Source: Acidobacteriota bacterium (GTDB lineage: Bacteria > Acidobacteriota > Holophagae > Holophagales > Holophagaceae). From it: 64,000 nucleotides of DNA. The translations under genes and the position numbers were made by a program. The notes below the pieces were generated by a model, which did not search any database, was not told the origin of the DNA, and saw only the letters and a list, made by a program, of their open reading frames with translations. The stretch is from contig BJFQ01000001.1 in assembly GCA_014189895.1 (NCBI GenBank), positions 62,001 to 126,000 of the forward strand, written 5' to 3'. Positions 30,817 to 33,574 of this stretch are shown here, in pieces (position 1 is the first letter of the stretch; each line of letters starts with the position of its first letter).

Positions 30817-32097
30817 CTACCTTACCTTAAAGTTGAGGGCCTCTGCGCCAGCGTAGCGCGCCTGAGAGCCCAGCTCTCTCTCTATCTGTATCAGCCGATT
30901 ATATTTAGCCACCCGATCAGTTCTGGCTGGCGCCCCTGTCTTAATTTGTTTCGCCGAAGAGGCGATCGCCAAATCCGCAATAAAAGTATCCTCGCTCTCG
31001 CCGCTCCGATGGCTGATAATGCAGCGATAACCCGCCTGATGAGCTATGTCAATGGCGTGGAAGGTTTCTGTCACCGTCCCGATTTGATTAAGTTTAACCA
31101 ACAGCGCATTAGCTATATGATCGGAAATTCCTTGTTTCAAAATAGCGGGGTTGGTCACAAAAACATCGTCACCCACGAGTTGGATCTTATCGCCAAGTGC
31201 GGCGGTTAGTTGTTGCCACCCTGCATAGTCATCTTCGGCCATTCCATCCTCAATACTGATAATAGGAAATTGCCGGATGAGTGATTCGTAGTAACTTAAT
31301 AAGGTTTCTGAGGTCCACGATTTTCGATCTAAATGATACTGGCCGTCTCGGTAAAACTCTGAGGCGGCACAATCAAGTGCAAGGTAAACATCTTGACCTA
31401 ACCGAAGTCCTGAATGCTCAATGGCTTCGGCGATACAGTGCAAGGCGGCTTCGTTACTTTCCAGATGCGGTGCAAAGCCTCCCTCATCACCGACCCCTGT
31501 AGCAAGTTTCTTAGTTTTGAGTACCTTTTTAAGATTTTGGTAAATTTCCGCGCCCCAGCGAACCGCCTCATGAAAACTAGGCGCTGCGACGGGGACCACC
31601 ATAAATTCTTGAATATCGACGTTGGTATCTGCATGAGCACCACCGTTTAAAATATTCATCATGGGAACAGGCAAATAGAGAGAATCGGTCGATCTCAATT
31701 GACGATAGAGGGGAGTCTTTAAAGACCGGGCTGCCGCCACGGTAGTTGCCATGGAAACTCCCAAAATAGCATTGGCTCCTAAGTGAGATTTATTGTGCGT
31801 TCCATCCAGATCAATCATTCGTTCATCAATCGCTTTTTGATCGAAAGGGCTCCAGTTCTTTAGGTGAGGGGCAAGGAGGGTTTCCACTGCGTTAACAGCT
31901 TTCAAGACTCCCTTACCGCCGTATCGTTTGGTGTCTTGATCGCGATGTTCGAGTGCTTCTTTTGAACCGGTGGAAGCTCCCGAGGGAACGATGGCACTTC
32001 CAAAATGTCCATCCGATAGAAATACCGTCACTTGAAGCGTGGGATTTCCCCGACTATCTAAAACTTCGAGGGCTTGAATATTTTCAATAAGGGTCAT
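30817..32097 (-). CDS. eno: Enolase
   Basis: The 426-residue glycolytic enzyme interconverts 2-phosphoglycerate and phosphoenolpyruvate. Family blocks are present throughout: 'ALEVLDSRGNPTLQV', 'GSAIVPSGASTGSKEALEHRD', 'NAILGVSMATT', 'LPVPMMNILNGGAHADTNVDIQEFMV' (in pieces), 'GVGDEGGFAPHLESN', metal Asp in 'LALDCAASEFY', 'SIEDGMAEDD', 'LVGDDVFVTN', and 'LVKLNQIGTVTET' with the catalytic Lys, then 'CIISHRSGESEDTFIADLA' split. Length is normal. It lies upstream of an FtsB-like gene and downstream of two tandem terminators of the TrpC-like gene, so it must have its own promoter in the short gap. Confidence 0.97.
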   Translation of the reverse strand: MTLIENIQALEVLDSRGNPTLQVTVFLSDGHFGSAIVPSGASTGSKEALEHRDQDTKRYGGKGVLKAVNAVETLLAPHLKNWSPFDQKAIDERMIDLDGTHNKSHLGANAILGVSMATTVAAARSLKTPLYRQLRSTDSLYLPVPMMNILNGGAHADTNVDIQEFMVVPVAAPSFHEAVRWGAEIYQNLKKVLKTKKLATGVGDEGGFAPHLESNEAALHCIAEAIEHSGLRLGQDVYLALDCAASEFYRDGQYHLDRKSWTSETLLSYYESLIRQFPIISIEDGMAEDDYAGWQQLTAALGDKIQLVGDDVFVTNPAILKQGISDHIANALLVKLNQIGTVTETFHAIDIAHQAGYRCIISHRSGESEDTFIADLAIASSAKQIKTGAPARTDRVAKYNRLIQIERELGSQARYAGAEALNFKVR

Positions 32098-32156: not shown

Positions 32157-32172
32157 CTTCTTAAAAAGAAAA

Positions 32173-32187
32173 GCCCCTTTCAGGGCT
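32173..32187 (-). terminator. Rho-independent terminator of the TrpC-like gene
   Basis: On the minus strand, AGCCC and GGGCT arms enclose a short A/G-rich loop directly after the stop codon, followed by TTTTCTTTTTAA. It closes the gene at 32193-33260. Confidence 0.75.
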
Positions 32188-32192
32188 GCGAT

Positions 32193-32294
32193 TTAACGCT
32201 TTTTCTTTTTGGTGGCTTTTTTAGCCGCTTTTTTCTTGGTGGCTTTTTTAGCTACTTTTTTAGTAGCTTTTTTAGCCGCTTTTTTCTTGGCCAT
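32193..32294 (-). CDS. Possible separate 33-residue histone-like peptide (internal start)
   Basis: Within the TrpC-like frame, the ATG at 32294 begins MAKKKAAKKATKK and continues to the shared stop. The peptide has 33 residues, almost only Lys, Ala and Thr, with one Arg at the end. AAGGAG lies 6 nt before this ATG, which is as good a ribosome-binding site as any in the window. The product would resemble the C-terminal repeats of Hc1/AlgP-like histone-H1 homologues and could compact DNA or bind RNA. There is no stop between the TrpC-like part and this start, so fusion and free peptide may both be made. Confidence 0.5.
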   Translation of the reverse strand: MAKKKAAKKATKKVAKKATKKKAAKKATKKKKR

Positions 32295-33260
32295 GATTGG
32301 CTCCTTTTTGCCCTTGCGGGCTGTTGTGGAAGGGGTGCGGTGAGCCGGTGTTCCAGGCTTTCTGGACCCGGTATCTTTCCGCGGGGAAGAAATTTTTTCT
32401 TTGGCTACTTTGGTGGCAGCAGGTGCAACCTTGGTGGCCACTGGGGTGACGACGGGCGTTGGGGCCGCTTTCACCTTGGGAATTTTTTTAACGGGGGGTT
32501 CTTCGCCTTTTAATAATGAGGCTAAGCGCTTGCCGGGATAAAAATCATCCAAGAGCGCGTCGCCAATAATGACACCATGAACTCCAAGAGCGTGGAGATG
32601 CTTCACTTGGACTATGCGATTAATACCTGCCTCAAACATAATCAATGAATCTTTAGGAATCTTCTTAATGAGCGTAATGGACTTATCGTAGTTGGGATTC
32701 CAGTTTTCTAAATTGCGTCCTACGATACAAAAGATCTGAGCGCCGACTTCGATTGAGCGCTTAATGTCTTCGTCATTGGTCACTTCAAAGACAACATCTA
32801 AACCCTTAGCAACGGCCAACTTATGTAAATCCACTAATTTAGATTGGGCTAACAGGGCCGGCATTAAGAAGATGGCGTCTGCCCCTAGAATCTTACTTTC
32901 TTCAACTTGGTATTCCTCAAAAATAAATTCGCGACGCAGCAGAGGAACCTTCACTTGGGAGCGGGTTTCCGATAGACCTTTATCATCACCAAAATAAAGG
33001 AACTTATCCGTAGCGATTGAAAGGGCTTTGGCACCATTTTCTATGAGGCTTTTTGCATGTGTCGAAGCTTTAAAATTAGAACGCGTCTTTCCTAAGCCCG
33101 GGCTTCCGCCTGCAACTTCAGCGATGATCGTAATCGTCCCTTGGCTTAATTCTTCTTTCAAAGAATGATGACCTCGGTAATTTCCTTTGGCAGCGACCGA
33201 ACCTCGTTGCTTCTTGATTTCTATATCAAGAGCTTTAAAAATTGCAACGCGCTTTAACAT
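32193..33260 (-). CDS. TrpC-like TIM-barrel protein fused to a histone-H1-like tail
   Basis: Residues 1-252 align along their whole length with indole-3-glycerol-phosphate synthase ('IIAEV.GGSP', 'YFGDD', 'PLLRREFIFEEYQV', 'GADAIFL', 'VVFEVTNDED', 'GRNLENW', 'FEAGI', 'VIIGDALL'). Several catalytic positions differ from the family: the Lys after IAE(x) is Ala50, the second catalytic Lys is Arg110, the substrate Asn is Gly181 and the Ser after Glu210 is Ala211. Glu48, Glu159 and Glu210 remain. Normal activity is therefore doubtful. Residues about 253-322 are a Pro/Ala/Thr/Lys linker, and 323-355 a basic tail of KKAAKKATKK-type repeats as in bacterial histone-H1-like proteins. Nucleic-acid binding is inferred. 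No other trp gene is nearby. An internal start at Met323 has its own ribosome-binding site. Confidence 0.8.
   Translation of the reverse strand: MLKRVAIFKALDIEIKKQRGSVAAKGNYRGHHSLKEELSQGTITIIAEVAGGSPGLGKTRSNFKASTHAKSLIENGAKALSIATDKFLYFGDDKGLSETRSQVKVPLLRREFIFEEYQVEESKILGADAIFLMPALLAQSKLVDLHKLAVAKGLDVVFEVTNDEDIKRSIEVGAQIFCIVGRNLENWNPNYDKSITLIKKIPKDSLIMFEAGINRIVQVKHLHALGVHGVIIGDALLDDFYPGKRLASLLKGEEPPVKKIPKVKAAPTPVVTPVATKVAPAATKVAKEKISSPRKDTGSRKPGTPAHRTPSTTARKGKKEPIMAKKKAAKKATKKVAKKATKKKAAKKATKKKKR
32301..32306 (-). promoter_or_regulatory. Internal Shine-Dalgarno site in the TrpC-like gene
   Basis: AAGGAG on the minus strand, 6 nt before the ATG at 32294. It encodes part of 'KKEP' in the fusion. 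The spacing is optimal for initiation. Confidence 0.6.
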
Positions 33261-33574
33261 TTAATTGGATCTCATAAAATTTTTGGATTAGATCCTCAGA
33301 TGATTATTTAAGAGGTTGGTCCATCACTTGATGAACACTTAACTTAATCAAACCCAAGGTTTTCCCTTGAGTCAATTGGTTTTTTTCGAAAGTTTTAGAT
33401 TCTGGGTCCCTCGAATCGTTCAAAAAATTCACTTCTTAGCTTATTGGGAAAAACATCTCCAGAAATTCTTCCCAACATCAAATCACAAATAGTCCCAATA
33501 AAATCAAGGGTTTTATAGATTTTAAAATTCGAAATATTAGAAAAAACTGTGGCTTTTGGTCCACACTATTGATT
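33261..33574. other. AT-rich divergent intergenic region
   Basis: This 314-nt stretch separates the TrpC-like gene (minus) from rnc (plus) and must hold promoters for both. I find no gene in it. It contains GGATCT/AGATCC arms near 33267-33296, a CAAGG/CCTTG hairpin near 33356-33370 with a T-run a little further on, and TTGGGAA/TTCCCAA arms around 33443-33476. None is a convincing known element. Confidence 0.5.

Follow-up and report, generated by a model that had tools for sequence, protein, structure and literature searches.

A TrpC-fold pseudoenzyme gene of the Holophagaceae that probably nests an H1/Hc2-like protein in the same frame

Pseudoenzymes, H1-like tails and internal translation starts are each known separately. 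The catalytic set of indole-glycerol-phosphate synthase (IGPS, TrpC) is formed by Lys53, Lys110, Asn180 and Ser211 together with Glu51, Glu159 and Glu210 (S. solfataricus numbering). The genes cheA and infB each give two products in one frame by means of an internal ribosome-binding site (RBS), as known for CheA-S and IF2-beta, and their short form represents most of the protein. Chlamydial Hc2 binds both DNA and RNA and its length varies through repeats (PMC2848022). The Pseudomonas proteins PhaF and AlgP carry an H1-like tail that is thought to tether their structured part to the nucleoid (PMC9239181).

The gene described here lies in a 64,000-nt stretch of Acidobacteriota DNA, analysed as a whole and referred to below as the window. 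It shares with TrpC (PF00218) the fold, a full-length alignment and the residues E48, E159, E210, P54, G57, R182 and G233, but differs from it by A50, R110, V180 and A211 at the catalytic positions, by a basic tail, by eno as neighbour instead of trp genes and by its occurrence in a genome that lacks both PRAI and TrpA. Like AlgP and PhaF, it joins a structured N-terminal part to an H1-like KPAA tail; the N-terminal domain of AlgP is predicted to be helical, whereas that of the fusion is a metabolic TIM barrel. For AlgP and PhaF, we are not aware of a tail made on its own from a conserved internal start. The tail resembles Hc2 (PF07382) by its Lys/Ala repeats in variable number, but forms here the 3' part of another gene, in the same frame and with its start inside that gene. 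An in-frame second product from an internal RBS would recall cheA and infB, with the difference that it would be of another kind than the long form, i.e. a nucleoid-type basic protein. The open-access papers searched describe no homologue of the fusion, and no TrpC-fold pseudoenzyme gene nesting in frame its family's main Hc2-like protein was found in the open-access literature and the libraries searched.

The fused gene, its distribution and its basic tail

The fused ORF occupies positions 32193..33260, as given exactly by a first-pass annotation, and lies on the minus strand, with its ATG at 33260 and its TAA at 32195-32193. It codes for 355 residues comprising a TrpC/IGPS-fold barrel (codons 1-250, 32511..33260), a Pro/Ala linker predicted to be disordered (codons 253-322, 32295..32504) and a Lys/Ala tail (residues 323-355, MAKKKAAKKATKKVAKKATKKKAAKKATKKKKR). 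The tail is also a nested ORF (32193..32294), opening at the internal ATG of codon 323 and coding for a 33-aa H1-like sequence (MAKKKAAKKATKK...KKKKR). The barrel runs into the linker and the 33-residue tail as previously described, with neither stop nor frame break at the junction. The next gene downstream, also on the minus strand, is the enolase gene eno (30817..32097), and a terminator-like hairpin (AGCCCTGAAAGGGGCT) followed by a T-rich tail (32172..32187, minus strand) stands between the two, recognized by consensus match only. Wherever the loci of the family extend far enough, eno is likewise the first gene recognised downstream, often with DapF beyond. TTGACT-N17-TTTGAT, at 33347..33375 on the minus strand, was read by eye as a candidate promoter for the fused ORF; the motif TTGAC-N17-TTnATn recurs 5' of most orthologues. 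The 5' leader of the Geothrix fused gene is strongly conserved.

The continuous fused frame was present in 29 of the 36 other Holophagaceae genomes, covering 11 genera with 53-95% identity and no stop, and the orthologue set comprised 59 distinct near-full-length fused genes. Since the same frame recurs in these genomes and genes, the fusion is, judging from the sequences, real and due neither to chance nor to a local assembly error. The close relatives of the window gene come from Holophagaceae, a family found in soils and fresh water, cultured Geothrix among them, and their homologues carry the tail rather than ending before it. Outside Holophagaceae no fusion was seen, the more distant members of the class having ordinary TrpC-like matches only. 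In the tree, the fused genes form a single group (100/100), whose stem is long (2.15 changes per column) and whose inner branches are short, a shape that reads as a burst of change followed by strong conservation; the tree did not resolve the nearest TrpC relatives of this clade. Judged by its size and low G+C, the window genome probably belongs to UBA12189 or 'Acidiparvus', a streamlined freshwater genus described as auxotrophic for most amino acids (PMC11561045).

The tails of relatives are about 65-200 aa long, against 33 aa in the window. Searched against Hc2 (PF07382, cut-off 40 bits), they reached 97.6 and 48.1 bits (E=1.3e-27 in one), whereas the window tail, too short for the family itself, gave no match. 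Among the Holophagaceae that match Hc2, most have the fusion tail as the sole match of the genome. Judged by composition only, the tail probably binds nucleic acid, and DNA or RNA are both possible targets since chlamydial Hc2 binds the two.

The internal start and its leader

Directly 5' of the tail, the genes carry the motif AAG GGC NNN AAG GAG NNN NNN ATG. It includes a Shine-Dalgarno (SD) sequence, AAGGAG, at 32301..32306 on the minus strand, 6 nt 5' of the internal ATG. This arrangement (AAGGAG-N6-ATG) was found in frame in 57 of the 59 orthologues, and an ATG or GTG start in 58. The two codons of the SD are AAG and GAG in 57/57 cases each, whereas elsewhere in the gene AAG accounts for 0.40 of Lys and GAG for 0.12 of Glu codons in the window's genus. 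Synonymous diversity is about 0.4-0.7 in the barrel and drops to 0.00-0.14 around the internal start in UBA12189, Geothrix and g11 (Fisher p of 1.9e-9, 1.1e-5 and 2.0e-8, respectively), thus revealing constraint at the nucleotide level beyond that on the protein; the drop was not significant in group g6 (p=0.11). Synonymous change is almost absent over about codons 287-322 (32295..32402, minus strand), the leader of the nested gene. In Geothrix and g11 it is low elsewhere in the linker too, so that the signal extends beyond the RBS. A conserved SD and start, properly spaced and in frame, together with frozen synonymous sites, is the sequence signature of a second gene beginning within the frame.

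Two orthologues of genus g9 are natural variants bearing on which product matters. L024 keeps AAGGAG-N6 and has GTG as internal start. L030 is the sole orthologue without the internal start; its fusion is kept and its tail is less basic, with the repeat TPVPDSDPTPAKTPAKK.

We consider it probable, at roughly three chances in four, that one gene gives two products here, a tethered dead TrpC barrel and a nested H1/Hc2-like protein. Ribosomes starting at 33260 would make the 355-aa protein, i.e. the dead TrpC-fold barrel followed by a flexible linker and the Lys/Ala tail. Those starting at 32294, behind the internal SD, would yield only the tail, as a small nucleoid protein of the H1/Hc2 type with 33 aa in the window and about 65-200 aa in relatives. 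Use of the internal start is thus a prediction, which the cultured Geothrix strains make testable. AlgP and PhaF offer the likeliest model of its action, by analogy with which the tail would tether the barrel to nucleic acid. The barrel, its pocket remodelled, would there most likely bind a ligand or a partner. The first-pass annotation had proposed a module carried on nucleic acid, which agrees with a fused pseudoenzyme bearing an H1-like tail but covers half of the likely output, the tail being also a gene of its own. A more speculative extension is that the pseudo-TrpC is a ligand-gated part of bacterial chromatin, sensing a small molecule or a partner and sharing, by way of the common tail, its nucleic-acid sites with the free H1-like protein, a structured RNA leader setting the ratio of the two products; we hold this to be rather unlikely.

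The stretch 32295-32402 of the window is a candidate structured RNA leader, with a pyrimidine tract, a hairpin and an SD that is partly paired. The pyrimidine tract and a GCCC-tetraloop-GGGC hairpin stand 5' of the internal SD; in the window this hairpin (GCCC-GCAA-GGGC, 32310..32321, minus strand) is just 5' of it and has a counterpart in Geothrix. Two predictions speak against use of the internal start: part of the SD can pair with an upstream UUCC tract, and the RNA around this start is not unusually weakly folded, giving no clear signal. Across 31 genes of the Geothrix group, the 47 nt ending with the internal ATG vary at two positions only; beside these, a further stem shows a few changes on both sides. 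Such a leader could possibly regulate the nested gene.

These features also bear on another explanation, compatible with two products, in which the frozen stretch serves chiefly as a promoter inside the gene or as a structured RNA (a regulatory leader or a stable 3' RNA), and a short transcript of its own, instead of a second initiation on the long mRNA, yields the H1-like product. It would account for the low synonymous change extending to about 110 nt 5' of the internal ATG and for the four helices shared by Geothrix leaders, in which 95.9% of cells are paired and three pairs are changed on both sides. On the other hand, the covariation is thin, suggestive rather than decisive, and helices 3 and 4 never vary. 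Moreover, no sigma-70-like promoter was found within the linker on the gene's strand, and no Rfam family matched the leader above threshold, the matches being sub-threshold only. This explanation is regarded as tentative, the best placed of the alternatives while still well short of even odds.

The barrel and its lost catalytic set

Residues 24-239 match Pfam IGPS (PF00218) with E=1.7e-46 in a profile search. AlphaFold predicts an IGPS-family (beta/alpha)8 barrel at residues about 30-250, mostly around pLDDT 90, with disorder from residue 259, and the best PDB matches of the barrel come from IGPS enzymes and from designs derived from these. The catalytic residues are nevertheless replaced throughout the fusion clade, which has A/S at position 50, R (Q or H in some) at 110, V/L at 180 and A/G/C at 211. 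True TrpC proteins of the same family retain K and N in 30/30 cases and K, K, N and S in 7/7. The first-pass annotation had already listed Ala50, Arg110 and Ala211 as losses and Glu48, Glu159 and Glu210 as kept, all of which agrees with the alignment. Its fourth loss, Gly181, was misplaced: this residue falls on the following, less conserved column of the alignment, and it is Val180 that replaces Asn180. Its description of a TrpC-fold pseudoenzyme with an H1-like tail holds, the fusion being family-wide, the catalytic set lost and the tails of relatives matching Hc2. The fused barrel is very probably unable to act as an indole-glycerol-phosphate synthase.

It is far from decaying. The barrel has a dN/dS of 0-0.07 in 15 of 16 pairs, which shows, at the sequence level, very strong purifying selection. 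Among the same seven genomes, its mean identity is 76% compared with 51% for the true TrpC, a gap widened by the existence of two TrpC lineages. The fused gene thus surpasses in conservation the live TrpC found beside it, and it is retained in a streamlined genome of 1.17 Mb that has neither PRAI nor TrpA, which points to a core function.

Such selection might also be expected of an active enzyme whose reaction has changed and which the tail localises. The many barrel positions that are invariant within the clade yet different from TrpC, the very low dN/dS and the retention of Glu48, Glu159, Glu210, Gly233 and Arg182 would agree with this idea. Nevertheless, both catalytic Lys and Asn180 are gone, position 110 varies (R/Q/H), which is unusual for a conserved catalytic site, and no substrate can be named. 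A new reaction is thus judged unlikely.

Read-through, tryptophan genes and integrity of the fusion

The linker never contains a stop in frame 0 (0 of 58 genes), whereas stops occur in the other frames of 47/58 and 44/58 genes. A frame always open, against stops in the two others, argues that read-through into the tail is kept as well. Of the two SD sequences of the window gene, the internal one has the stronger value (-8.1, against -2.7 at the first ATG); in relatives, the first start mostly has the stronger SD, and the internal one is stronger in 12/58.

The frame open in 58/58 relatives, the strong first-start SD in most of them and the persistence of the fusion in L030 would all suit a gene making the full-length fusion only, its SD-like sequence and Met being a protein motif (KE..M) or a pause for barrel folding. 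A pause, however, would not call for a start codon at a spacing of precisely 6 nt, where 58 of the 59 genes have ATG (GTG once), and constraint at the protein level does not explain the frozen synonymous sites. We find this explanation improbable.

Searched for IGPS/TrpC, PRAI (TrpF) and TrpA, the window genome has a single IGPS match, the fused gene itself, and neither PRAI, TrpA nor any other IGPS/TrpC; a second complete trpC, which the first-pass annotation had proposed to look for, is thus absent, and tryptophan synthesis is hardly the reason why the fused gene is kept. Both other genomes of the window's genus have one IGPS match each. Most Geothrix have two, the fusion and a true TrpC, and a separate intact TrpC is present in most larger genomes. 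An ordinary TrpC with a disordered extension, as the Pfam E-value could suggest, is very improbable: the catalytic residues are lost, the fused protein scores at least 87 bits under every NCBIfam TrpC equivalog cut-off and the host lacks PRAI and TrpA. Under the label trpC, such bacteria would be assigned a step of tryptophan synthesis that is absent, and the small protein would be overlooked.

An assembly or annotation artefact joining two genes, to which the contigs of relatives often ending within the repetitive tail might lend some colour, can practically be dismissed, given that independent isolates and MAGs from 11 genera show the identical join and that the frame is uninterrupted across Holophagaceae, with no frameshift or assembly error at the junction. 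In one MAG (G024), the gene L031 is in two pieces, its barrel frame being broken near codon 63, by error or by a real break. The true TrpC of Holophagaceae fall into two lineages (L085-L089 and L090-L114), about 35-38% identical and apart in the tree, suggesting from their sequences that trpC was replaced within the family.
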